From IMG/VR virus record IMGVR_UViG_3300035698_012682, positions 1-38,887 of that record: a stretch of 38,887 nucleotides of DNA; one strand, 5' to 3'. The notes under the pieces are model-generated. The model was not told where the DNA came from, made no database searches, and saw nothing but the letters and a program-made list of their open reading frames with translations. Numbering within the stretch: the stretch's first letter is position 1; each line of letters opens with the position of its first letter. This stretch comes from a virus. Position numbers and translations under genes: made by a program. Of the stretch, positions 2,896-36,685 are shown piece after piece.

Positions 2896-3525
2896 ATGAC
2901 AGCAGCAAGTACAACAGATATTGATGCCTGGAAAGAGTTTTGTTTGATTGGTATAATTCCACAAGCTTATCCTACTGGTGCAGGTGGCGGAGCAGAAATT
3001 GCATTCGCAGGAATGACTGAAGATATTACGGCAATGGACTGGGGAGAAAGAGACATTGAAGGAATGCCATTAGTAAATGGTGGTAGAGTAGTTAAAGTAA
3101 GCTCTATGGGTGATGAGAGTATGACTCTTAAAATGTATCCTACTGATGCATTACTAGACACTGCAGATGTAGCTGAAGGAGTGGCACAATTGTTCCACCC
3201 GCAAGCAGAAGAAGATATTACACAACCAGTCGTTGTAATCAACAGTATTTACAGACGTAAGTTTGGAATAATTATGCTTTGGTCTGAAACACTTCCAGCA
3301 ACAGCAGGAGCAATTCCAGCAGAGGGCAAGAAAGCTTATCGTATTCAAGTAGTTAATGCATACATGACAGCATATAAACTGAACTATGATGACAAAATGT
3401 TAAGTGCAGAAGTTACGTTTAAGTGGGCTCCGTTCACTAAAGCAGCAGTTGGTAATAAGAAAGAAGAATCTACAGATGGTTCTGTTCAATTACTTGCAGC
3501 AATAACAAGCTCAACAGCCTTTTAG
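2896..3525 (+). CDS. Putative major tail (tube) protein
   Basis: A 209-residue, beta-rich acidic protein with many Gly/Ala/Thr turns, preceded by a good ribosome-binding site (AAGGAGATGAT). The position after the gp10-like gene and before two chaperone-sized genes and a tape measure is the major tail protein slot. A hairpin followed by a T-run lies right after the stop, as expected for an abundantly expressed gene. No catalytic motif is seen. Assignment is by order, size and composition. Confidence 0.65.
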   Translation: MTAASTTDIDAWKEFCLIGIIPQAYPTGAGGGAEIAFAGMTEDITAMDWGERDIEGMPLVNGGRVVKVSSMGDESMTLKMYPTDALLDTADVAEGVAQLFHPQAEEDITQPVVVINSIYRRKFGIIMLWSETLPATAGAIPAEGKKAYRIQVVNAYMTAYKLNYDDKMLSAEVTFKWAPFTKAAVGNKKEESTDGSVQLLAAITSSTAF

Positions 3526-3551
3526 TTAAGGCTACTTTTTTATTTTTATTA
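3516..3551 (+). terminator. Hairpin plus T-run after the tail tube gene
   Basis: AGCCTT, a six-base loop (TTAGTT) and AAGGCT form a perfect 6-bp stem overlapping the stop codon. TTTTTT, TTTTT and TT runs follow. It would act as an intrinsic terminator or attenuator, setting tail tube expression above the downstream genes. The next gene's ribosome-binding site (AGGAGA) lies immediately after. Confidence 0.65.
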
Positions 3552-3565
3552 GGAGAACTGAAAAG

Positions 3566-3886
3566 ATGAATGAAGAAAATCCAGGAAAGGAAATAAGGGA
3601 AAGAATAGTAAATGGTTTCGCCATTAACAGAATTCCACCCAAAGCAAAGCAAAGGTTCCTACAACTTGCAACAGAAGAGTTCTGTGACGATAGGGGAATG
3701 TGTTTGAAGTATCTTATTGATGTTCACGATGGTTTAGTTACCAACGGACTAGAACACTTTGAATGGGCTTTAAATGAGTTTAACGAAAGGTTGTTGAAAG
3801 TAGAAAAACAACCAGAACAAAAAGAAGAACCAACCACCAGGAAGATGATGGATGGAACACGAATAGAGGAAAATGAAAATGAGTAG
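3566..3886 (+). CDS. Unknown tail-module protein, 106 aa
   Basis: Starts 10 bases after AGGAGAACTG. The N-terminal half is helical and contains I-P-P-K-A-K-Q-R-F followed by an acidic E-E-F-C-D-D-R-G-M turn. The C-terminal third is a charged Glu/Lys/Gln tail. It lies between the tail tube and chaperone-like genes. Its 3' end overlaps the next gene by 8 bases. It could be a small assembly factor, but nothing diagnostic is seen. Confidence 0.6.
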   Translation: MNEENPGKEIRERIVNGFAINRIPPKAKQRFLQLATEEFCDDRGMCLKYLIDVHDGLVTNGLEHFEWALNEFNERLLKVEKQPEQKEEPTTRKMMDGTRIEENENE

Positions 3887-4244
3887 ATTTAAAAAACATT
3901 TAGGCGAAGGAAAAACAATAACTATCAATGAGGAAGACTTCCTTATTAAACCATTAACAACAAATGAAGCACCGTTATTTTTCAAAGTTATGGCTGCATC
4001 AGGAGATGATGGATTTGACGTAAGTAAACTTAACGATTCATCAAGAGATGCAATCAGAGAATTGCTTGAAAAAACACTACAGAAAAGTTTTCCAAGTGAA
4101 TGGGATAATGAACGGGAAGAATTGAAAACGTTCGGTATGAAGTACATGATGACTTTATTGCCATTAATTATAGAAATAAACATGCCTGAACATGATGAGA
4201 AAGAAAACAAAGTAGATGAGCTTAAAGCAAGATTGAACAAATGA
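3879..4244 (+). CDS. Putative tail assembly chaperone (first of pair)
   Basis: About 121 residues. Two in-frame ATGs (3873 and 3879) follow GAGG, and the second has the better spacing. Acidic and mostly helical after a short beta start (I-T-I-N-E-E-D-F), a common pattern for gpG-like tail assembly chaperones, which bind the tape measure. The following 79-codon gene begins inside its stop (ATGA) and leads straight into the tape measure gene. That pair layout is typical of tail chaperones. No clear slippery heptamer for a frameshift fusion was found. Confidence 0.55.
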   Translation: MSRFKKHLGEGKTITINEEDFLIKPLTTNEAPLFFKVMAASGDDGFDVSKLNDSSRDAIRELLEKTLQKSFPSEWDNEREELKTFGMKYMMTLLPLIIEINMPEHDEKENKVDELKARLNK

Positions 4245-4480
4245 TAGGTTCACCCTTACAACCAACATCGAAGAAGGGAAAACCATTTGAAGAAAAAGAT
4301 TTGGAAGTTATGCACCATCAATTTATGAAAATTTATGGGTGGATTCCTTTCGATGAGTTCAAGAATATACCTTTAGCGACTTTATTTACCTTACACAAGA
4401 TGGTTTTTGAAGAAATAAATAAACAAGAAGAACTGAGAATAATACTATTGAAGTTCTGCGGAGTGAAAAACCCCACATAA
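4241..4480 (+). CDS. Putative tail assembly chaperone (second of pair)
   Basis: A 79-residue protein overlapping the previous gene by 4 bases (ATGA) and ending one base before the tape measure start. The core (about residues 15-70) is helical with an aromatic cluster (I-Y-G-W-I-P-F-D-E-F). Size and position match the gpT-like partner that in many siphoviruses is produced by frameshifting. Here it has its own start codon. Confidence 0.5.
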   Translation: MIGSPLQPTSKKGKPFEEKDLEVMHHQFMKIYGWIPFDEFKNIPLATLFTLHKMVFEEINKQEELRIILLKFCGVKNPT

Positions 4481-4481
4481 A

Positions 4482-5819
4482 ATGGTAATCGTAACAGAAG
4501 AAAAAGTAAAAATCATATTCGAAGTAGTTAAGAAAGGATTCACTAAAGGAGTATCACAAATAAAAGAAAACTTGCAAGGCTTTAACAAAGTACAAAATGC
4601 AAGCAACGAAAAGTTCAAAGAGATGCGAACATCAACAGGTGGCGTCAATAAACGTATGAAGGGATTAAACAATATGGGTGCTAGAGTTGGTAATCGTCTA
4701 AGAATGATGACTGCAGGACTTAAAGGTTTCCGTATGGAAATGCTTGGTGTGATGTTCTTCGGTATGGCTATGCAACGTATGTTCAGTAGTATGCTTAAAC
4801 CTGCACTCCAATTAACAGGATTCTTCGACTTACTAAAATCAACCCTAGAAATATTATTTTTACCAATGGCGTTGTTCATATTCAAGGCGTTGTTGCCATT
4901 GTTCACTTGGTTAATGAACCTTGATGAAGCCACCAAATTATTTATAGGAAAATTAGTTTTATTTGGTGTAGCGATGGGTTTTGTTCTTTTCGTAGTTGGG
5001 ACTTTAGCATTAGGTATAGGTTCAATGATTGTAGCATTTGGTAGCGTGTTCACAATAATTAAAGGATTAATTCCTGAAGTTAGTTTATTCGGAATTAATT
5101 TAAGTAGTATTGTAGAGATGGGTGTTGGAGTGACACTTTTAGCTACAGCACTGAAATTAATAAAAACTGTGCTTGGTGGAATTTTAGATTTCTTATTAAA
5201 CACTTCTGTTGTTGGTGAGTTCTTTGATAGAATGGGTATTGAAATAGATGAAAATAAAACATCATGGGAAAACTTAAAGACATTAATAATTGAAGCATGG
5301 GATAAAATTAAAGCTAAGATTGGTATTGAGGAAGAAGCTGCAGGTATGGGGTTCTCAATTTCAGGAATAATAGCTGACTTCAAATCAATGAAAGACAAAA
5401 TAACTGAAAGTCTTGATAAGATAGATTTTGATAAAGTTCAAGAAGATTTTTCATCACTACTAACTATAATGGGTGACGCAACACCTACACTAGAATCGTT
5501 AGCAGACTCATTAAGTATTATAGCTGATGTTCTTGAGAAAATAGTTAAATTTGGAACTAAAGTAAATAATATTTTTGGTGGAAATGGAGTAAATCCGTTT
5601 GAAGGTGGAGGATTATCACCAGGTTCACCAGGAACATTTGGTGGTTTTCAAAATGAGTTTTTAGGTAGAGAAGGAAGAACTTTTAACGAAGGTGGAGCTG
5701 GCGGAACATTCACAATAACTAATAATTTCAGTGAAGTATTTGATCCTGAAACTATTGCAAGATTAATTGATACAAGTATAAGTGCTTCAATATTCCAAAC
5801 AATAAACAATACTAATTAA
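4482..5819 (+). CDS. Tape measure protein (short)
   Basis: 445 residues. The N-terminal ~80 residues are basic and helical. Several strongly hydrophobic, membrane-like helices follow at about residues 85-105, 115-150 and 155-235, then an amphipathic helical region (about 265-360) and a Gly-rich linker near 375-410. Hydrophobic helices in a long helical protein after the chaperone pair are typical of tape measures, which set tail length and help DNA entry. At about 1.5 A per residue it predicts a tail near 65-70 nm. It is the longest tail gene apart from the hub, which supports the role. Confidence 0.75.
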   Translation: MVIVTEEKVKIIFEVVKKGFTKGVSQIKENLQGFNKVQNASNEKFKEMRTSTGGVNKRMKGLNNMGARVGNRLRMMTAGLKGFRMEMLGVMFFGMAMQRMFSSMLKPALQLTGFFDLLKSTLEILFLPMALFIFKALLPLFTWLMNLDEATKLFIGKLVLFGVAMGFVLFVVGTLALGIGSMIVAFGSVFTIIKGLIPEVSLFGINLSSIVEMGVGVTLLATALKLIKTVLGGILDFLLNTSVVGEFFDRMGIEIDENKTSWENLKTLIIEAWDKIKAKIGIEEEAAGMGFSISGIIADFKSMKDKITESLDKIDFDKVQEDFSSLLTIMGDATPTLESLADSLSIIADVLEKIVKFGTKVNNIFGGNGVNPFEGGGLSPGSPGTFGGFQNEFLGREGRTFNEGGAGGTFTITNNFSEVFDPETIARLIDTSISASIFQTINNTN

Positions 5820-5836: not shown

Positions 5837-6268
5837 ATGGCAAGAGACAATATAAAATTTGTTGGTGATGGTGTGACTGTATTTGTTGCAACTACAGGTG
5901 TTAAAGAGAATTATTTGAATGCCATAAAACCAATAAGTATCCCTACAACAGAATCAACACCAAACACTGTAAATATAATAAATTTGAACAAAATAGAGGA
6001 TAGGTTTACAATAAATGGTTCATTGAATAATGGCAAATTACATGCTAGCGAAACACACACAACAGCAATCAACAAGAAAGACGCCTTAAAGGTAATGTTC
6101 GCTTTAGGTAGCGTTGTTTCAATGACTTGGGAAACCACAACGTACAGTGTCGCAGTAGATAAATATGAGATAGATTATAAAGCTCAAGATGATAAAGATA
6201 ATGAACAAGATGGGGTTGCCATTTATACAGTAACAATATCTTGTGTAGAGGGGACTGATTTAGTATGA
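5837..6268 (+). CDS. Tail protein downstream of tape measure
   Basis: 143 residues, beta-rich. It has a repeated beta pattern, with F-T-I-N-G-S-L near residue 60 and a K-Y-E-I-D-Y...Y-T-V-T-I-S-C strand region at the end. The position between tape measure and hub is that of distal-tail or baseplate adaptor proteins. A small overlapping ATG (6265) would encode only 11 residues and probably just carries the next gene's ribosome-binding site. Role is inferred from position. Confidence 0.5.
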   Translation: MARDNIKFVGDGVTVFVATTGVKENYLNAIKPISIPTTESTPNTVNIINLNKIEDRFTINGSLNNGKLHASETHTTAINKKDALKVMFALGSVVSMTWETTTYSVAVDKYEIDYKAQDDKDNEQDGVAIYTVTISCVEGTDLV

Positions 6269-8464: not shown

Positions 8465-8875
8465 ATGAGAGATTCAAAAGGGAGATTTTTAAAAGGACAC
8501 ATTCCTTGGGTAGTGGGATTAACAAAAGAAACAGATGAAAGAGTATTAGCCATCGCCAAATCTAAAACTGGAGAAAACTATCATAATTGGAACGGTGGAA
8601 AATCGAAACATCCATCAGGTGCAATAAAAATAAGTTATAATGGAAAACAATATTGGGAACATCATCATGTTTGGTGTATCACTAATAAATTTCCTTATAT
8701 TCCTAAAGGTATGGAAATACACCACATAAATAATAATCCTTCAGATAACAGACCAGAAAATTTAGCAATGCTTCCTGGAAAAATTCATAGAAAACTTCAC
8801 GCAAAATTACAATTACAAGATAATCCAGATAGAAAATACTGGGGGAAAAATATACATTTAAGAGGTAAAATATAA
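8465..8875 (+). CDS. HNH homing endonuclease
   Basis: 136 residues. The N-terminus has the K-G-R-F-L-K-G-H...P-W motif common before HNH nucleases. The HNH core is clear: H-H-H near 66-68, E-I-H-H-I-N at 84-89, N-P-S-D-N-R-P-E-N-L at 91-100, and further His residues near 108 and 112. It sits as an extra gene between two tail genes. It has its own GAGGAA site, and its stop overlaps the next start (TAATG). This is the usual placement of a free-standing homing endonuclease invading a structural operon. Confidence 0.85.
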   Translation: MRDSKGRFLKGHIPWVVGLTKETDERVLAIAKSKTGENYHNWNGGKSKHPSGAIKISYNGKQYWEHHHVWCITNKFPYIPKGMEIHHINNNPSDNRPENLAMLPGKIHRKLHAKLQLQDNPDRKYWGKNIHLRGKI

Positions 8876-9480
8876 TGACAATACGAAATACATGGCCCGT
8901 CCAAGTTGCAGATGGTGATGAGTTAGCTGAGGGATTCTTCAATGGGAATACTGATAATTCAGGAATTAGGCGTAACGCATCCAGTGAAGATACTACAGAA
9001 TACTCTGCTATAGGTGCGACTTCTTATACAGATATAGGGTATAGCAAAACTTTCACACCTCCCGCAGGAGTTAATTCTTGTATTAAGGCAGTAAAAGTAG
9101 TTCTGGACGCTAAATATGTTACACAGAATGGATTTATTAGAGGGACTTTAACTAATGATACAAACAGTGCAACAATTAATTTAACTTCTGCAGTTTTAAC
9201 CACTGTTAATGGTAACGATGACACCTATTGGTTATCTGTTGGTGATGTTGCATATACTGAAGCAACACTATATGCAGAAACATTAGGCGTAACTGGCCTC
9301 TCAGGGGGAAAATCCAGTTTGACATCCCCAAAAGCAATATGTGGAGGGGCGACATATACTTTAACTTTTAGAGCTGCAAGATCAGGAAGTTCTACTGCAG
9401 CCGATATTTACATAAAAGATATAACTGTCACTATATATTGGGAATATCTTCACGATGTTGTTGTGAGTGGGTGGGCTTAA
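8875..9480 (+). CDS. Putative receptor-binding / tail-fibre protein
   Basis: 201 residues, almost wholly beta (Thr, Ser, Val and Gly rich), with no membrane segment. It has a jelly-roll-like strand spacing and ends with an aromatic strand (I-T-V-T-I-Y-W-E-Y). It follows the tail hub gene, separated only by the HNH gene. Position and composition fit a receptor-binding or tip protein. Host receptor is unknown. Confidence 0.5.
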   Translation: MTIRNTWPVQVADGDELAEGFFNGNTDNSGIRRNASSEDTTEYSAIGATSYTDIGYSKTFTPPAGVNSCIKAVKVVLDAKYVTQNGFIRGTLTNDTNSATINLTSAVLTTVNGNDDTYWLSVGDVAYTEATLYAETLGVTGLSGGKSSLTSPKAICGGATYTLTFRAARSGSSTAADIYIKDITVTIYWEYLHDVVVSGWA

Positions 9481-9485
9481 AAAAA

Positions 9486-11303
9486 ATGAATTGGTTTGAA
9501 AGAATCCATAAAAAAATTCAAGAGAGTAACGATAAACAGTATAAGCTAAGAATTGAGGAATTAGAAACTAAGTTAGTTAAAGAAATAAGCAATCATTCAA
9601 TGTGTGGACGAGAACTAACTGAGCAGTTAGGCACTATGGAATTGTTAGACATTACTTTATTACACCGGGAAATAACTATTTCTAAACTTCAAAAACAACT
9701 AACTCCAGAACCAATTAATGTTCTCGCTCTCGCCAAAAAATATGAATCTAAGATGGAAGCTGAACCTTTCAAATATAACTTCAGAGGGAAAGGAGATGAA
9801 GATATTAAGTTATTTCTTAAGGTTCCTAATAAGCTAAAAGAATTAGTTAGAAGTTTCTCAGTAAAAATTAATAATAAGTATAATCCTCAATCTCCACAAG
9901 AAGCAGTAGGGTATGTTCAAAGATACTTTGCTTATGATGAAAAGAATAAGTTTACTAGAGAATCTGTTGATTTTTGGGATTGGGAGAACTTCTTATTAAC
10001 ATTCAAAGACGATTGCGTTGACGGTGAAATGGAAATAATCACTATAGACGGAATTAAAAAAGTTAAAGATATACAAAATGGAGATCGAGTCTTAAGTTAT
10101 AATTTTGAAACAAAAACTCAAGAATATAAACTGGTTAAAAACTTTGTTGATAAAGGAATGCAAAAGGGTAAAAAAATAAGATTTAAAAATGCTACGTATA
10201 TTAAAGTAACTGAGAATCATCCGTTATGGACTAGGACTGATGAAAAAGGAATTTCTAAATATTCTAAAACTTTAACTTCTGATGTTGATGAAACTCATTG
10301 GTATAAAAATAAAGTTCCCATATCCAAAGGATTAAACATTAATGTTGTAGATGTTCCTTCTTTAACTGAAGATATAATGTTTATAATAGGGCATTATCTT
10401 GCTGAAGGATGGAGTGATGCAAGTCATGTTTGTACTTCAGGAAGAGATATTGAATACAATATAGAACCTTTACTTAAAAAACTAAATATTCCTTACTCTA
10501 TTGGACAAAATGGTGATGGTGTTCCTATACTTAATTTTTTACAAGGTTGGTTTAAAGATTTACTAAAACCTTTAATTAATAATAGTTTTGACATAAATAT
10601 TCCTCCTGAATGGTTGTTTCTTCCAAATAGTAAAATAGAAAGTCTTCTATTGGGTTATTTCCTTGGTGATGGTCATTATGAAAATGAAGGTAAGTCTAAA
10701 ACTTACAGTACTAGTTCTGATAAGTTCGCTAGCGATTTAGTATTTATGAGTGCTCGTTTAGGTAATAATATTTATATGTATCATCAGTTAAAACATGGTG
10801 GTGTCGGGACTAAACCTATTTGGCGCTTAAAATATAATCCTACTGGAGAGAATAATCGTTATCATGGTAATGATGGTCTTGCAGAAACAAGTATAAGGGA
10901 TATTACTGATTGTGAGGATATTCACGTTTTTGATTTTGAGGTTGAAGATAATCATTCATATTTTAACAAGCATGGGCATTTACTTCATAATTGCGATGCG
11001 GTGGCTGGTGCTATGTATGTGATAATTGTTGATTTATTAACGATGAAGGGATGGAGTGTTCATAAAGAACGCTTATGGTTCCATGTTAACAGAAATTATA
11101 AGGAAAGACACGCAAACAACATCTGGTTAGCGGACGATGGCCTATTCTACACTGTTGAATCTACAATAGATATAAAGGGCACCCTAAATAGAAAATGGAC
11201 TCATGTCCCTTTAAAGTATGATAGTTTCTATACACACCACGATGCATTCGCAAAAGCAAACAAAAGCCACAGAGGCAATAACTCAATAAGGCACGAACTA
11301 TGA
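9486..11303 (+). CDS. Transglutaminase-like cysteine peptidase, interrupted by an intein
   Basis: 605-residue precursor. The mature protein after splicing would be about 279 residues. The first ~90 residues are coiled-coil. The C-terminal domain shows the transglutaminase-like catalytic pattern: D-C-D-A-V-A (Cys 503 in the precursor), His 542 in H-A-N-N-I-W-L, and Glu 558 in V-E-S-T, in place of the usual Asp. Such domains are cysteine peptidase/amidase-like and could serve tail penetration or lysis. The next gene starts in its stop (ATGA). The intein sits immediately before the catalytic Cys. The ATG at 9486 is preferred to an upstream non-ATG start at 9438 lying within the previous gene. 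Confidence 0.75.
   Translation: MNWFERIHKKIQESNDKQYKLRIEELETKLVKEISNHSMCGRELTEQLGTMELLDITLLHREITISKLQKQLTPEPINVLALAKKYESKMEAEPFKYNFRGKGDEDIKLFLKVPNKLKELVRSFSVKINNKYNPQSPQEAVGYVQRYFAYDEKNKFTRESVDFWDWENFLLTFKDDCVDGEMEIITIDGIKKVKDIQNGDRVLSYNFETKTQEYKLVKNFVDKGMQKGKKIRFKNATYIKVTENHPLWTRTDEKGISKYSKTLTSDVDETHWYKNKVPISKGLNINVVDVPSLTEDIMFIIGHYLAEGWSDASHVCTSGRDIEYNIEPLLKKLNIPYSIGQNGDGVPILNFLQGWFKDLLKPLINNSFDINIPPEWLFLPNSKIESLLLGYFLGDGHYENEGKSKTYSTSSDKFASDLVFMSARLGNNIYMYHQLKHGGVGTKPIWRLKYNPTGENNRYHGNDGLAETSIRDITDCEDIHVFDFEVEDNHSYFNKHGHLLHNCDAVAGAMYVIIVDLLTMKGWSVHKERLWFHVNRNYKERHANNIWLADDGLFYTVESTIDIKGTLNRKWTHVPLKYDSFYTHHDAFAKANKSHRGNNSIRHEL
10014..10991 (+). other. Intein with LAGLIDADG homing endonuclease (326 aa)
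   Basis: Block A begins at Cys (C-V-D-G-E-M-E-I-I-T). Block B contains V-T-E-N-H-P-L-W-T. Two LAGLIDADG-type motifs are visible: I-I-G-H-Y-L-A-E-G and L-L-G-Y-F-L-G-D-G. The C-terminal blocks are V-F-D-F-E-V-E-D-N-H-S-Y-F and finally L-L-H-N, followed by the Cys +1 residue. All residues needed for standard class 1 splicing (Cys1, block B His, terminal His-Asn, Cys+1) are present. It is in frame with both exteins, so it is probably active. Confidence 0.93.
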
Positions 11304-13988: not shown

Positions 13989-14002
13989 CTATTTTGCGAT
14001 TA
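13989..14002 (-). repeat. Degenerate third copy of the TAATCGCAA repeat
   Basis: CTATTTTGCGATTA on the + strand matches the last 14 bases of the two perfect 17-bp repeats (14777-14793, 15805-15821) at 12 positions. It overlaps the methyltransferase stop, with the TAA being part of the repeat. So all three consecutive genes end at or next to a copy. Confidence 0.5.
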
Positions 14003-14764
14003 GGTTAAACGCTTCTTTATTATTTTAATATATTCTTCTTCTTTCTCAATCAAAATAAAACCTCTATTGAGATTCTTACAAGCAACACCAGTAGTACCGC
14101 TACCAGCAACATTATCAAGAACAATATCACCCTCATCAGAATAAGTCTCAATCAAATACTCAAACAATTTAACAGGCTTCTGGGTAGGATGTAATTTAAT
14201 ATCAACATCATCAGAATACGTTTTAGATATTGAAGGATTATGAGGAACTCTAAAAGCCAATATAGATAGCGGATAACGAGTACCATCATCCTTTTTACGA
14301 GTCATATTTAAAGACGAGTAAATAGTATTATTTTCACCATACATACTTAAAGTCTTCCTCTGTGTAAGAAACTCTTTATCTTCAACACCCCATTTTTGAG
14401 GGTTATATTTATATTTGCCTTTTTTAGAGAATATAATAACTGCTTCATGCACTTTAATATGTTTTTGTTTCGCACTTAGCCCAGAACCGCTTTTATTTTT
14501 AAGCCAACATAATTCCTCTCTAAATAATGCAATATTACTTAATATCAATTTACTAGTAAAAGGTTGACTCGCAGTTAATACTATAACCCCATCATCTTTA
14601 ATTATTCGTTCATACTGTCCCCATAATAATTCTAAATTAATGATAGAATCCCAAGAACAAGCAGTAGTTCCATAAGGTAGGTCAGCTAAAATCATATCAA
14701 CAGATTTATTAGCTATATCTTTCATCACTTCAAGACAATCTCCATGTATTATTTCTTGTTTCAT
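14000..14764 (-). CDS. DNA methyltransferase (DLPYG type, N6-adenine or N4-cytosine)
   Basis: 254 residues. The amino-methyltransferase motif IV is A-D-L-P-Y-G-T-T-A-C-S-W-D near residue 27. The SAM-binding motif I lies near the C-terminus (D-N-V-A-G-S-G-T-T-G, about residue 217), so the order is catalytic then SAM-binding, as in the beta class. K-L-H-P-T-Q-K-P (about residue 190) precedes it. This is a common phage solitary methyltransferase used to protect viral DNA from restriction. No cognate restriction gene is seen nearby. The preceding gene is a PAPS-reductase-like protein and the two are linked by a shared repeat. Confidence 0.88.
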   Translation of the reverse strand: MKQEIIHGDCLEVMKDIANKSVDMILADLPYGTTACSWDSIINLELLWGQYERIIKDDGVIVLTASQPFTSKLILSNIALFREELCWLKNKSGSGLSAKQKHIKVHEAVIIFSKKGKYKYNPQKWGVEDKEFLTQRKTLSMYGENNTIYSSLNMTRKKDDGTRYPLSILAFRVPHNPSISKTYSDDVDIKLHPTQKPVKLFEYLIETYSDEGDIVLDNVAGSGTTGVACKNLNRGFILIEKEEEYIKIIKKRLT

Positions 14765-14796: not shown

Positions 14797-15747
14797 CTAG
14801 TCAAATATGTTACTACAACTATGACATTCATACTTTAAGTTCTTATCAGGAATATGTCCTAATCTAAAATTTTCTTCTAACTCAAAGATTTTAATTTCTT
14901 CTTTAGTCTTACGATCAATAAAACCACCTTGACCTCTTAACCTTCTGCCCTCATTATCCCAGTGTTTAGTTTGCTCCCATAATTCAGGGCTATTCTTCCA
15001 CTGCATATACAATCCCCATTGATTCTGCTTAGGACATTGAAAACAACCACTACGATTATATCTATCATAAATAGGATTATGAAGTTTCTTACCTTGAAGA
15101 AACTTAGCACATTCAAGTTCAGTCATACCAATCTCAGTAAGATAATGCCTTAATCTATGGTCTTTCTCTGTTGCTTTCTGTCTTTTAGTTTCATCACTCG
15201 CTATACCTACAAAAATATTACTTGCATCTTCCATCTTCTTTTGTAATGGATTAACTTTAGCTTCTCTTGAATACCAACAATGACCTGCAATAGTAATAGG
15301 ATAAGACCTTATTGTCCCACCATTAGCACCTTTAGACACTATTCCATAAAACCAATAATCCCATAAACTAATTATTGTATTCTTAGTCCATTCACTAGGG
15401 TAAAAATCTAAATCAACAACTTCAACACCTTTAGCTTCAAGCTTGGCTTTAACTTCTTTATTCTTATTAAATAATTCTTCTGCTCTAAAAGTCTTAGGTT
15501 TTAGAGTTGTAAGTTTCAGATCATAGTTTTTTTCTAAATACTCAATATAAGCGTATAACTCAGGATACTCAAACCCTGTATCAGCAAAAACTATTTCATC
15601 ATAAAATACTTTATTCTCTTGAATTTTAAGAAGCATAGCTGTTGAATCTTTCCCTGCACTAAAAGAAACATAGTTTTTGCCCTTGATTAAGCCTTGTTTA
15701 ATTAGCTTGATCCTGTTCTTCTTTCCGTTCTCAAAATCGTTACACAT
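14797..15747 (-). CDS. PAPS-reductase / DndC-like ATP pyrophosphatase family protein
   Basis: 316 residues. The N-terminus has the PP-loop S-F-S-A-G-K-D-S-T-A (about 28-37), typical of N-type ATP pyrophosphatases (PAPS reductases, DndC). Downstream are D-T-G-F-E-Y-P-E and a cysteine motif S-G-C-F-Q-C-P-K (about residue 233), usual for phage-encoded members. An extra C-terminal C-H-S-C pair may bind metal. Substrate is unknown: adenylyl-activated sulfur chemistry on DNA or RNA is possible but not shown. It lies in a unit bounded by perfect direct repeats, next to a DNA methyltransferase. It could be a mobile cassette. Confidence 0.8.
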   Translation of the reverse strand: MCNDFENGKKNRIKLIKQGLIKGKNYVSFSAGKDSTAMLLKIQENKVFYDEIVFADTGFEYPELYAYIEYLEKNYDLKLTTLKPKTFRAEELFNKNKEVKAKLEAKGVEVVDLDFYPSEWTKNTIISLWDYWFYGIVSKGANGGTIRSYPITIAGHCWYSREAKVNPLQKKMEDASNIFVGIASDETKRQKATEKDHRLRHYLTEIGMTELECAKFLQGKKLHNPIYDRYNRSGCFQCPKQNQWGLYMQWKNSPELWEQTKHWDNEGRRLRGQGGFIDRKTKEEIKIFELEENFRLGHIPDKNLKYECHSCSNIFD

Positions 15748-29146: not shown

Positions 29147-29379
29147 TGACATTTAAGAAACTACATGAAGATATTGATTATAACGCACACAACATGGGTG
29201 AGATGGGGATATTCATAAGAACAGAATATGCTCACAATAAAATCAACGACTGTGAAAAAAAAGTAAAAGATGCATTAATGTTAGTATTATTTATTACAAT
29301 GATGGGAGAATCTTACCATGATGATACTTTAAGAGAAAAGTGTTATTGGCAATTAATTAATGAATTAGGGTTAGAATGA
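29146..29379 (+). CDS. Unknown protein, 77 aa
   Basis: ATG overlaps the zinc-ribbon stop (TAATG). The TTG 18 bases earlier is less likely. Helical, with H-N-M-G-E-M-G-I-F-I-R-T-E-Y near residue 15. Overlaps the large terminase start by ATGA. Function unknown. Confidence 0.6.
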   Translation: MTFKKLHEDIDYNAHNMGEMGIFIRTEYAHNKINDCEKKVKDALMLVLFITMMGESYHDDTLREKCYWQLINELGLE

Positions 29380-30977
29380 AGAAACTAAGCATGCAAGAAA
29401 GAATGATAACGATGAAGTTAGCATATGATTACTCCAAGCTAGACTTCACAAAACCAATCAACAGAGAAAACATTGACTGGGACATCTACGAAAACAAATT
29501 CAAGTTCGTAGACCAAGTAAAAGCCATGAAGAACCCAAATCCACTCTACATGAAAATGATAGACAGCGACTACACCATGAGAAGCTACTACTTCCTAAGA
29601 ATCAACAACGAACCACTAAAACTATTCTCATACCAAGACATAATCATCAACGACACCTACAGATTCAAATACTTCGAAGCAGCAAACCAAATAGGAAAAA
29701 GCATAGAACTAGACGTTGAAGCAGTAAACGACTTCACAAAGGATCACGACAAAGAATACAACATAGCAATCATATCAAAAACACTACCCCAGTCAACACA
29801 CCAAATGAGAAGAATAAAACAATTACTGAACTCAATGAGTCATCTCGACTGGAGAGAAGACAAAGGAGACAGTGACTCGATGAGTGTATTGGAACTAGCA
29901 TGGAAGGACGAAAAAAGAACAGACACTAAAGGAAACCCCGTAACCAAATACGTTAATCGAATAATCTGTGCGCCAGCAACAGAAGCAGCACTAGGATACG
30001 ACCTCCACAAAGTATTCCTTGATGAATTCGAATTCTGGGATGATGACGTCTACATGCATGACCAAATATTAGAACCACGAACATACGGAACAAAAGGAGG
30101 AATGACAGTAACAACAAACCCTAACGGAACAGAAACCAAAGGAGCAGAACTAACAAGACTAATACTTCCAGACGGAACAAAGAAATATCACGTTTACAAC
30201 TTCAACTTCCTAGACCGACCAAGCAACACACAAGAAGAACTAGAAGCAGCAAGTGCAGGAAAAACAAGACAAGTAGTAGAATCAACATTATTAGCAATAA
30301 GAAGCATAAGTGACAAAAACTACTTCACACCAGATGAGATAGATCGAAGCAGAGACAAAACACTAACAGAACTCAAAATGGTAAACAAACAACCATTCTT
30401 CTTCCTGGACGTGGGAGCAAAAAAAGATGCATCAGTCCTAGTAGGGGGATTTATTGAACCAGATGATAAAATTGAAAACTTAATGCACATATACATCCCA
30501 ATAATAAAACCATATCCAGTAGGATATCCCTTATCCAGAGTAGTTGGTTTAACAGATGAAAAACAAGATAGTGATGGATGGGAACACCACAAAAGCGTAA
30601 AAGAACATATTGAAGAATGGAGTATAGATGGAACAATACCAACACTCGGAGTGGATGCAACAGGAAACAGTGGAATCATACCATTGATGGAAGCAGCAAA
30701 ACTACAACCGATAGACGTCCAATTCTCAGGACCAGTAAAGAGTGGAATGTACCAAAGATTCAAATACTTCATGGAAAAAGGATTATTACACAGAATACCA
30801 AACAAACAATTCGATTATGAAGCAAGTCACCTCGAAGTAAGAAAAAGTATGAGAGGATACTTGATGATTCACCACGAACATGAAGATGACCACGATGACG
30901 TAATGGATGCAATTGCAGGACTAATCTACATCGCAGACAATCCAGACATAGTCCCAGCCACACTCTCTTTTTTTTAA
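29376..30977 (+). CDS. terL: Large terminase subunit (packaging ATPase-nuclease)
   Basis: 533 residues. ATPase motor: Walker A-like A-A-N-Q-I-G-K-S (102-109), Walker B V-F-L-D-E (213-217), coupling motif T-T-N-P-N-G (246-251). RNase H-like nuclease: F-L-D-V-G (D345), G-V-D-A-T-G (D427) and D-D-H-D-D-V-M-D (acid residues around 504-511), the three conserved acid positions. Both domains are complete and typical of tailed-virus terminases, so headful or site-specific packaging is expected. ATGA overlap with the upstream gene. Confidence 0.95.
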   Translation: MKKLSMQERMITMKLAYDYSKLDFTKPINRENIDWDIYENKFKFVDQVKAMKNPNPLYMKMIDSDYTMRSYYFLRINNEPLKLFSYQDIIINDTYRFKYFEAANQIGKSIELDVEAVNDFTKDHDKEYNIAIISKTLPQSTHQMRRIKQLLNSMSHLDWREDKGDSDSMSVLELAWKDEKRTDTKGNPVTKYVNRIICAPATEAALGYDLHKVFLDEFEFWDDDVYMHDQILEPRTYGTKGGMTVTTNPNGTETKGAELTRLILPDGTKKYHVYNFNFLDRPSNTQEELEAASAGKTRQVVESTLLAIRSISDKNYFTPDEIDRSRDKTLTELKMVNKQPFFFLDVGAKKDASVLVGGFIEPDDKIENLMHIYIPIIKPYPVGYPLSRVVGLTDEKQDSDGWEHHKSVKEHIEEWSIDGTIPTLGVDATGNSGIIPLMEAAKLQPIDVQFSGPVKSGMYQRFKYFMEKGLLHRIPNKQFDYEASHLEVRKSMRGYLMIHHEHEDDHDDVMDAIAGLIYIADNPDIVPATLSFF

Positions 30978-32684: not shown

Positions 32685-34178
32685 ATGGGACAACTATCAA
32701 GAGTTTTTAGGGAATTGAATAGTAGTCCTGACAGAACAAATCAACAGCATATACCCATGCTTAACGTGATTAGTAATTCTTTGTCAGGATATATTAATGC
32801 GTATGGGCAGACTGCAAAGAAGAAGAATCTAGTTTCGTGGTATAAAGCAATACCTGAATTAACTGCACTCATAAATAAAGTCGCTAAAGACGTTGTTTAC
32901 AAATACAAATTTGTTCCAGTTCTCCCTAATCAAACTGGTAGAAACAAAATTCTTGTTGCAAACAAATTCTCCACAGAAATCAAACTAGGAAAGATGATGA
33001 GGGCACAAATGTCAGACATCTTAGGAACTGGAGAAGGATACGGTTGGATTGGCAAAATAACTGAAAAGCAAATAACTGCTGAAGTCACTAAGGTTTTGAA
33101 AGAAAGAGGCTTTAAAGAAACCAAATCTAAGAAACAAATGACTCAAAGGATTGTTGAAGAGTTCAAAGCCACAGACCGATTAGCAGATACTATGTTCATT
33201 GACGAACACGTATTAAAACCTAGAAAATATCGTTATATCGCGTCATCAACAATGGAGATTATTCACAATCAATACGATGTAGAAAGCTACATGCAAAGAG
33301 TGGGAACCACTCAAGAAAGTTTCACACCAAAAGAAATAATTCACTTCACACAATTAGAATTCGATGGAAGGGTATCAGGATTTACTCCAGTAGAATCTAT
33401 CGTTGTTCAGCTAGAATTGTTACGTCAAATGTGGCAAAACATGCTTGCAATGCAAAGAAATGGTGGTGCTCCTGATAAAATCATAACTCTCGAAAATGAG
33501 AAAGTTGGATCAGCCTCATTCAAACGAATCGAAGAACAATTAAGAAAATACAAGCTTGTTGAGAATAGTCATGGTAACATGTTGTTCACTGGAAAAGTTA
33601 CAGTTAGTGATTTGCAACAATTAGATAAAATGCAGTTCATGGACATGGGACTTTACATCACAGGACTTGTGGCTATGCAGTGGAATATTCCTCGGTCTTC
33701 CATACCCTACATTGTGGGTGGAACAAACACGAAAGACGATACTGGTGGAAACTCAGAGAGAGATTATTGGAGAACTATTGAGTTCTTACAAGAAGACTTT
33801 GCTGAAACTATGAACACCCAATTATGGATTCCTTACTTCGGAGTCAAACTTGTTTTTGAAAACCCATTCGTTGTTCAAGACATTCAACTAGAAAGTGCCA
33901 AGATGCAAAAGCTAAACAACATATTGACCGTTGATAAAATACTTTACAAATCTGGAAAACAACTTAACGAAGAGAAAGTTCTTGAGTTATTGGAACTGTC
34001 AATTGACGATTTGACTGAAGCACAAGAAATGGAAATGGATGGTGCTGCAGAAGGAATGGATAATCAAATGTCTAAGCAAGATTCAGAAAGCACAGAAGGT
34101 GACAAGAATGTTGCTAATTCAAAACGTGAAGAACAAGCTCAAACTGCAAGAAGCACAGGAAAACCCACTGGAAGGTAA
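32685..34178 (+). CDS. Portal protein
   Basis: 497 residues. The N-terminal region contains S-W-Y-K-A-I-P-E-L-T-A-L-I-N-K-V-A (about 49-65), the classic start of the portal core (a 'P-x-L-x-x-x-I-x-x-I-A' helix). A Q-R-N-G-G-A-P-D-K-I-I-T-L segment lies near 257. The body is mixed alpha/beta. The C-terminal ~60 residues are acidic and polar. Position between terminase and protease-capsid genes is invariant in HK97-like viruses. Gene length fits typical portal size. Confidence 0.85.
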   Translation: MGQLSRVFRELNSSPDRTNQQHIPMLNVISNSLSGYINAYGQTAKKKNLVSWYKAIPELTALINKVAKDVVYKYKFVPVLPNQTGRNKILVANKFSTEIKLGKMMRAQMSDILGTGEGYGWIGKITEKQITAEVTKVLKERGFKETKSKKQMTQRIVEEFKATDRLADTMFIDEHVLKPRKYRYIASSTMEIIHNQYDVESYMQRVGTTQESFTPKEIIHFTQLEFDGRVSGFTPVESIVVQLELLRQMWQNMLAMQRNGGAPDKIITLENEKVGSASFKRIEEQLRKYKLVENSHGNMLFTGKVTVSDLQQLDKMQFMDMGLYITGLVAMQWNIPRSSIPYIVGGTNTKDDTGGNSERDYWRTIEFLQEDFAETMNTQLWIPYFGVKLVFENPFVVQDIQLESAKMQKLNNILTVDKILYKSGKQLNEEKVLELLELSIDDLTEAQEMEMDGAAEGMDNQMSKQDSESTEGDKNVANSKREEQAQTARSTGKPTGR

Positions 34179-34211: not shown

Positions 34212-34221
34212 CATTTAAATA
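34212..34221 (+). promoter_or_regulatory. TATA-like box upstream of the capsid gene
   Basis: CATTTAAATA, the same ten bases as at 1604-1613. The predicted transcript start is about 17 bases before the ATG at 34260. No ribosome-binding site precedes that ATG (it follows CCCCCCAACATA), unlike the internal start at 34905. Confidence 0.4.
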
Positions 34222-34259: not shown

Positions 34260-36371
34260 ATGCCTGACGAGATCGAAACAAATACTTCTAAAAATTCTCA
34301 AGATAAGGTGACTGCTACAAAAAACATAATCTATTCTAAAGTCCATGGTTATGAAAAAAAGGAAACAGAAGATTTAATTATTGGTGGATATATTGCAACA
34401 ACACACTTAGATTCAGGATTTTTCGATTCTGACAGGGAAGTGTTTGTTAGGGATAGAATTGCAAAAGAAACGCTAGATTCTTGGCAAGTGGAGATCAATG
34501 AAGGTGTTCCACGTGCAAACAAAGCAAGCGTTAATCACAACAGAGAACCTCACGTTTCAGGAGTTGGAATTAAAGGAACTGCACAAGTTCACCAACTAAA
34601 AGATGGAGAATACGGACTTTACGTTGACACATTAGTTGACAAAACAAAAGATAACTTTGAAGACACAAAATATCGAATAGATCACGATTTACTAGACTCA
34701 TTCTCAATAGAATTCGCTACAAAAGACATTATGACTGGAGAATATATTCCTGGCGCAGTAACAGAACAAGATATTGGCGGAGGAATAATTCGTTCCTTAA
34801 TGCCAAACACAGTATTGAGGGGATATACCTTGGCCAGCCAACCAATGAATGAATTTGCAGTAAGACTAAAAGAAATACAAAATACAACATCGGAGGAAAA
34901 CCACATGACTAAAGAAGTTAAAGAAGCGGCTCCTGAAGAAGTAGTTGCGGAAAAACCAAAAGAGACTATTGAAACTCCAGAAGTTATTGAAGAACCAAAA
35001 GAAGCTCCCGCTCCTGAACCAGTTCAAGAAGAACCAGTTGAGGAAAAGAAAGAAACTCTATCAAAAGAAGATGCGAATATTCTTAAAGAAGCAAAAGAAA
35101 GAATTGTTTCAGAACAGAAAGAGGAAGAAAAGGAGAAAATTGTTTCAGAAGTAAAGGCTGAAGTAAAAGAAGCTCTTAAAACAGTTGAGGTTAAAAATAA
35201 AACAATGGTAAATACAAAAGAAGAACTACCTGAGTTTGTAGAGTTCAAAGAAACTCTTGAAAAGAAACACATTGATGCACAATTCGCTGCAGCTGGAAAA
35301 TTAGCAGATTCGCTAAAATTAACAGTTGGTGAAATAAAAACTACATCAAGAGCAGAATCAAGAGAATTCAAGAATTTCCGAGTAAACGGATCTAAACTAG
35401 AATTTAAATCTCTTGGTATCACTACAAACCAAAATACAGACACAGATTATCTACTCTCAGCAGCAGAATTATCTGATGTGTTTGATCCAGTAATATACAA
35501 TTACTTAAATCAATTAACAACTACCTGGAATACGTTGATGAAAGACGATAAGTCTATGAAAGGCAACAACCAAGTTCAGTTCACAATTAAAACTGCACGA
35601 AACACAACCGCAGCAGCTTACACTGGTAATGCAGTATCGCTAGGTAATGTGAGCCGTCAAAAATACATGACTAAGTTTAAGAAATACCAAGTGGGTGTTG
35701 AAGTAGATGGTGACATGATTGCCGCAGCACGTGGTGGACCGTTAGGAGATGTTTTCTCACAAGAAGTAAGAGATTCTACAGAAGACCTTATGGAAGTTAT
35801 GAATGCAGCTCTTTATGCAGAAGTTGGTCTGGAAACAGCAGCTGGCGTAATTGGTTTTGAATATCTTGCAGACAGTGCAGGTAACACAACTCTTTACAAC
35901 GTATCTCGAAGTGCAGCTAATCAGTTAGCACCAGATAGTGCAGGAAATACCTACATTAATGGAGCTAGTGCAAAAGTTTCTAAAACAAACTTGAGAGCAG
36001 CAATCAGAAATGCAAGAGAAGAAGGAGCTAAAGATGCAAACTTAGTATTTTACGTTAGTCCTATCCAATACGATATGATTAAATCATTATACGATGATGC
36101 ACAAAGATTAGTCCCAGTGTCTAGTAGATTTGGTTTCGCTGGAATGATGAGTTTCGATGAAATTCCTGTATTCTTTGACAAAGACTGTAATGATGATGAT
36201 ATATTCCTTGTGGACTTAGAAACACATAGAATTGCAATTTGGGTTCCACCAACTCTGGAAAGACTAGGTAAAGACTCAGATAGTGAGAAAGGATTCATCA
36301 AATCATATTGGTGTTCATACAACAAAGCACCACGTAGAATCTGTATGATCTACGGGAACGCAACATCTTAA
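34260..36371 (+). CDS. Fused prohead protease, scaffold and major capsid protein
   Basis: 703 residues, three parts in one frame. Residues 1-~205: HK97-type protease with V-N-H-N-R-E-P-H-V-S-G-V-G (catalytic His about 93) and L-L-D-S-F-S-I-E-F (catalytic Ser about 149). Residues ~215-315: Glu/Lys/Pro-rich scaffold-like coil. Residues ~316-703: capsid protein of HK97 fold, with late strand D-D-I-F-L-V-D-L-E-T-H. An in-frame ATG at 34905 (residue 216) has a strong CGGAGG site 8 bases upstream, and ATG 35205 (residue 316) has a weaker GAGG. Both could give scaffold-capsid or capsid alone. Autocatalytic cleavage is also expected. Confidence 0.88.
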   Translation: MPDEIETNTSKNSQDKVTATKNIIYSKVHGYEKKETEDLIIGGYIATTHLDSGFFDSDREVFVRDRIAKETLDSWQVEINEGVPRANKASVNHNREPHVSGVGIKGTAQVHQLKDGEYGLYVDTLVDKTKDNFEDTKYRIDHDLLDSFSIEFATKDIMTGEYIPGAVTEQDIGGGIIRSLMPNTVLRGYTLASQPMNEFAVRLKEIQNTTSEENHMTKEVKEAAPEEVVAEKPKETIETPEVIEEPKEAPAPEPVQEEPVEEKKETLSKEDANILKEAKERIVSEQKEEEKEKIVSEVKAEVKEALKTVEVKNKTMVNTKEELPEFVEFKETLEKKHIDAQFAAAGKLADSLKLTVGEIKTTSRAESREFKNFRVNGSKLEFKSLGITTNQNTDTDYLLSAAELSDVFDPVIYNYLNQLTTTWNTLMKDDKSMKGNNQVQFTIKTARNTTAAAYTGNAVSLGNVSRQKYMTKFKKYQVGVEVDGDMIAAARGGPLGDVFSQEVRDSTEDLMEVMNAALYAEVGLETAAGVIGFEYLADSAGNTTLYNVSRSAANQLAPDSAGNTYINGASAKVSKTNLRAAIRNAREEGAKDANLVFYVSPIQYDMIKSLYDDAQRLVPVSSRFGFAGMMSFDEIPVFFDKDCNDDDIFLVDLETHRIAIWVPPTLERLGKDSDSEKGFIKSYWCSYNKAPRRICMIYGNATS
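34891..34907 (+). promoter_or_regulatory. Internal ribosome-binding site and start in the capsid gene
   Basis: CGGAGG then 8 bases then ATG, in frame with the enclosing gene (residue 216). This is one of the best start signals in the window and lies exactly at the protease-scaffold boundary, so a second product lacking the protease is likely. Confidence 0.7.
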
Positions 36372-36385
36372 GGAGGTAATGAAAA

Positions 36386-36685
36386 ATGACAGCAGTAACA
36401 ATAACTGAAATATCATCCGTAGATGCCCCTTGCACACTAGCTACAGGAACTGCAAAAAGACGAGCAATAGTTTATGTTCGTTGCACTTCTGCATCGACTG
36501 GAGATACGTTAAATTTAGCAACGTATGTTCCTAATATCGCAGACGTTGAAGGTATCTCTTACGAGACACTTGATGGTGCAGATGCAATTACATCAGCTAA
36601 TACTTGGGCAGCAGGAGTAATAACTTACGCAGGCCACGCAGGTAGTGGAGTTTGGGAAACTGCATACATAGTCAATTTTACATAA
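36386..36685 (+). CDS. Decoration-like virion protein, 99 aa
   Basis: Very strong ribosome-binding site (AAGGAGGTAATG). Ser/Thr/Ala-rich beta protein beginning M-T-A-V-T-I-T-E-I. It follows the capsid gene directly and is followed by a T-tract. Similar starts occur in the proteins at 36738 and 37287. A capsid decoration or head-stabilising role is suggested by position, strong translation signals and composition. Confidence 0.6.
   Translation: MTAVTITEISSVDAPCTLATGTAKRRAIVYVRCTSASTGDTLNLATYVPNIADVEGISYETLDGADAITSANTWAAGVITYAGHAGSGVWETAYIVNFT

Follow-up and report, generated by a model that had tools for sequence, protein, structure and literature searches.

Tailed viruses need many capsid subunits and few proteases, and a gene that joins a maturation protease and a capsid protein in one polypeptide raises the question of how this unequal need is met. 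In the literature searched, no explanation came to light of how genes with such a fusion do so. Such a gene lies in IMG/VR virus record IMGVR_UViG_3300035698_012682, the whole 38,887-nucleotide stretch of which was analysed and is referred to here as the window.

Architecture of the fused gene

The open reading frame at 34260-36371 (+) comprises 703 open codons, in which a prohead protease is followed by a scaffold and then by a capsid domain in a single frame (Table 1). A sequence-only reading had described it as a protease with His ~93 and Ser ~149, a Glu/Lys/Pro-rich scaffold stretch and an HK97-type capsid; Pfam matches, predicted fold and alignment agree, and as judged from these models the three-part reading is right. 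The capsid domain matches Pfam SU10_MCP (PF17236) at residues 480-698 (E=7.4e-9; 36 bits against a curated cut-off of 24.1), as do 7 of the 8 family members tested at E<=1, and Foldseek, at probability 1.00, pairs the capsid part with the capsids of SU10 and HK97 (E~1e-7 to 1e-6). Its mature form is predicted to be ~35 kDa.

The protease was assigned from its fold, from His93 and Ser149, which are unchanged across 18 aligned sequences, and from a weak match to Pfam Peptidase_S78 in a single relative (E=0.026), the window protein itself having no match to this family. For the protease part the top Foldseek match, obtained with an earlier, shallower structure model, is gp21, the capsid protease of T4 (E=0.02, probability 0.93), and no ClpP-like fold is among the 50 protease-domain matches listed. 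In the AlphaFold model, built from 18 sequences, the N-terminal domain is mostly confident (pLDDT mostly 80-94 over residues 41-200), the middle is disordered and then helical, with a long helix at 269-306 in the scaffold region, and the C-terminal capsid domain is modelled at lower confidence. The fused gene is preceded by the portal gene (Pfam Phage_portal, 32685-34178) and, further upstream, by a probable terminase with a weak Pfam match (29376-30977), and the next gene downstream begins at 36386.

Table 1. Positions of the fused gene, its parts and its putative expression signals in the window
Feature	Position	Strand	Remarks
TATA-like box, archaeal type, TTTAAATA	34214..34221	+	38 nt before main ATG; putative promoter
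Full-length protease-scaffold-capsid gene	34260..36371	+	703 aa, 78.5 kDa; start codon without Shine-Dalgarno sequence
Prohead protease domain	34335..34877	+	residues ~26-206; His93 and Ser149 invariant; T4 gp21-like fold
Internal Shine-Dalgarno sequence, CGGAGG	34891..34896	+	8 nt before ATG 34905; kept in 19 contigs, synonymous constraint
Scaffold region	34905..35411	+	residues ~216-384; Glu/Lys/Pro-rich; putative role
Predicted nested product, scaffold-capsid	34905..36371	+	488 aa, 54.3 kDa, from Met216
HK97-fold major capsid domain	35412..36368	+	residues ~385-703; SU10_MCP family

Elsewhere in the window, the open reading frame at 9438-11303 is interrupted by an intein-like element with Hint/intein splicing and LAGLIDADG_3 domains, and an open reading frame between tail-region genes (8465-8875) is, by eye only, a candidate HNH homing endonuclease. 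At 14000-14764 and 14797-15747, two adjoining genes on the minus strand encode an N6/N4 DNA methylase and a member of the PAPS-reductase family; they are possibly a DNA-modification pair.

A putative internal start at the protease/scaffold junction

The sequence-only reading had singled out an in-frame ATG at the protease/scaffold boundary with CGGAGG 8 bases upstream, and had found no Shine-Dalgarno sequence (SD) at the main ATG; coordinates and anti-SD energies agree on both points. GGAGG at 34892-34896 is separated by a spacer of exactly 8 nt from ATG 34905 (Met216), which is placed at the junction and has the best anti-SD match among all in-frame ATGs of the gene (-9.5 kcal/mol; next -6.8), the value for the main ATG at 34260 being +0.1 kcal/mol. 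The + strand of the 38.9-kb window has GGAGG-N5-10-ATG at four places only, and one of the other three precedes the gene at 36386. The start region of ATG 34905 does not stand out as poorly structured (45th percentile). In any single gene, an SD is not very improbable once the encoded residues are taken as fixed (synonymous P=0.01 in the window; 0.002-0.54 across single genes), which counts against a nested start. An internal promoter, as opposed to an internal ribosome-binding site, was considered and rejected, visual inspection of the 80 nt upstream of ATG 34905 having shown no evident TATA-like box.

Scans of IMG/VR used the protein as well as profiles built from each of its ends. About 20 contigs carry this capsid, and it is fused in every one; a tblastn search against 50,697 phage records returned no match. 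The IMG/VR search for fused protease-capsid proteins with a conserved internal ribosome-binding site, which had been proposed along with the internal start, yielded 19 distinct contigs with pairwise protein identities of 40-93%. An SD-preceded Met is found at the protease/scaffold junction in 19/19, so that the internal SD-ATG is lost in none of these relatives. Across the 19 contigs the anti-SD energy averages -10.3 kcal/mol at the internal start versus -2.5 kcal/mol at the main start, and in 14 of them the internal start region is within the lowest 7% of the gene for structure. In contig L025 the homologous Met (4909) follows AAGGCGGGTGA, which at -11.4 is the top value in that gene. The anti-SD match at the internal start is weak in L004, where an inserted region that includes a DUF6582 domain lies between protease and scaffold; one SD-like ATG stands at the protease end (6589) and a second, weaker one at the scaffold start (6880). 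The extra DUF6582 domain is found at the same place in the fused gene of L010, likewise with an SD-like start on either side.

A third start, from which the capsid alone would be made, had also been suggested, at an in-frame ATG (35205) at the scaffold/capsid boundary with a weaker GAGG. This ATG is indeed present in the window, with GAGGT 13 nt upstream, but the spacing is too long, and neither the Met nor the SD is kept at that position in the aligned relatives. ATG 35205 was therefore rejected as a start, and an output of three nested products is highly improbable.

TATA-like boxes similar to that before the main start occur upstream of the fused gene in L002, L003, L004, L013 and L026. In a branch comprising L007-L009, L015 and L028 the main ATG follows a few bases after the upstream stop codon and has no SD; in L021 the main-start SD is as good as the internal one. 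The assignment of the main start codon is uncertain in L002, where no AUG stands out as the start of the full-length gene at ~5980-6016: AGGTGAT precedes ATC/ATA codons, and GTG 6016, the earliest of the usual start codons, lacks an SD; a non-AUG start is possible. In L007, L008, L009, L015, L019, L027 and L028 a conserved extension of ~50 residues (KIHARFVKQYG...) precedes the protease N-terminally. The archaeal-like TATA boxes are the one feature that suggests an archaeal host for the window virus; two scans of genome contigs gave no relative from which a host could be identified, and no tRNA genes were found.

Selection on the internal start and competing explanations

The residues at the SD site are often K-E-V, and the amino acids alone thus already favour an SD-like sequence; for this reason, codon choice was examined. 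All 18 genes with a Glu at the SD encode it by GAG, where gene-wide GAG use would predict 5.3 (P=8e-11), and so do 14/14 after thinning (P=1e-8). Among 15 representatives, 13 have G as the third base before this codon, against an expectation of 5.7 (P=2e-6). Independence of lineages is assumed in these P values, and thinning secures it only in part. The excess of GAG over expectation indicates selection on the SD over and above that on the encoded residues, as far as codon comparison can tell. In the protease region of close pairs, dN is well below dS (ratio about 0.14-0.28). By this measure the protease is under purifying selection in the relatives, which argues that the long product is also made and kept, despite its weak start.

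A short scaffold-capsid protein could also arise if only the full-length protein were translated and the protease cut itself off at the junction, the internal SD-ATG being incidental. The fused protease does lie immediately before the junction, and prohead proteases commonly self-cleave. Self-cleavage leaves unexplained, however, why GGAGG is conserved at the codon level and at a fixed spacing from the Met while neighbouring residues vary. In addition, a procapsid made of about 415 full-length subunits would be crowded: by a rough estimate that assumes T=7 and a 19-nm inner radius, their protease and scaffold parts would take up ~21,800 of 28,700 cubic nm. We consider this explanation unlikely.

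The internal SD could instead be an unused relic of a once-separate scaffold-capsid gene that became fused to a protease gene. A distant relative, L038, encodes a protease-scaffold fusion (3141-4684) and, directly downstream, a separate gene that is possibly its capsid gene. The separation of this capsid-like gene fits such a history and makes it plausible that the fusion is derived; but a relic would decay, whereas synonymous constraint holds the SD in relatives down to 40% identity, and an unused signal is less likely still than self-cleavage. In the L038 fusion, internal ATGs at 3648, 4131 and 4227 each follow an SD; the strong internal SD-ATG there, together with the gene layout, suggests that the nested start may be older than the capsid fusion.

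Known fusions and a proposed two-product scheme

The nearest precedents each share part of this arrangement. In lambda, the scaffold Nu3 is made from an internal in-frame start inside the protease gene C. The window has a comparable start at its scaffold, a likeness at the sequence level only, and differs in that its capsid domain lies in the same frame, whereas the lambda capsid protein is encoded by a separate gene. In phage Gifsy-2, a protease, a central putative scaffold region and the major capsid protein (MCP) are reportedly encoded in one gene, in the order found here; the Gifsy-2 protease is ClpP-like, whereas the fold of the window protease matches T4 gp21. The description of Gifsy-2 as having a 'tripartite capsid gene' comes from the title of Effantin et al. 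2010, which PMC7762592 and PMC8538268 cite. Thaumarchaeal proviruses, too, encode a capsid maturation protease fused to an HK97-type MCP in one gene, with an S78-type protease in NCAV2-Pro1 and NitIsl-Pro1 and a chymotrypsin-like one in Nvie-Pro1; the passage describing them mentions no internal start or nested product (PMC6563490). In HK97 and T5 the scaffold (delta domain) is fused to the MCP (PMC10275583), and the predicted short product shares the layout of HK97, with an N-terminal scaffold before the MCP; the protease is a separate gene in HK97 and an upstream in-frame extension in the window. ES18 was dropped as a tripartite comparison, its annotation having separate head genes. The nested three-part layout had been put forward as unusual: the fusions themselves are known, from thaumarchaeal proviruses and Gifsy-2, but searches of the open-access literature found no protease-capsid or tripartite fusion for which a conserved internal start is reported. 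The conserved built-in start is apparently a novel addition to the known protease-capsid fusions.

A mechanism is proposed in which the weak, SD-less start at 34260 would yield few 78-kDa protease-scaffold-capsid subunits, and the strong internal SD with ATG 34905 would yield many 54-kDa scaffold-capsid subunits without protease. As the scaffold and capsid domains are common to both isoforms, the two could co-assemble through them; the minority of full-length subunits would bring the protease inside the procapsid, where it would remove both scaffold and protease by cleavage ahead of DNA packaging. That one gene gives a scarce full-length and an abundant scaffold-capsid protein, which co-assemble so that protease is carried into the procapsid, is very probable on the comparative evidence. 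The original proposal of excess scaffold-capsid from one gene thereby survives in its junction start, which comparison, including the synonymous constraint on the SD, strongly supports, and loses its start at 35205.

We lean, with less assurance, towards a broader reading, in which a probably archaeal family of tailed viruses sets its protease:capsid ratio entirely by alternative initiation in a tripartite gene, every procapsid being built of two isoforms. If true, this would be a previously undescribed and evolutionarily stable scheme of mosaic-subunit assembly. Annotation pipelines predict one long protein here and therefore probably miss the main capsid product. For this family of uncultured tailed viruses, two starts in one gene offer a conserved and testable answer to the unequal need for enzyme and shell, and suggest a simple route by which an enzyme may be placed on a minority of shell subunits.
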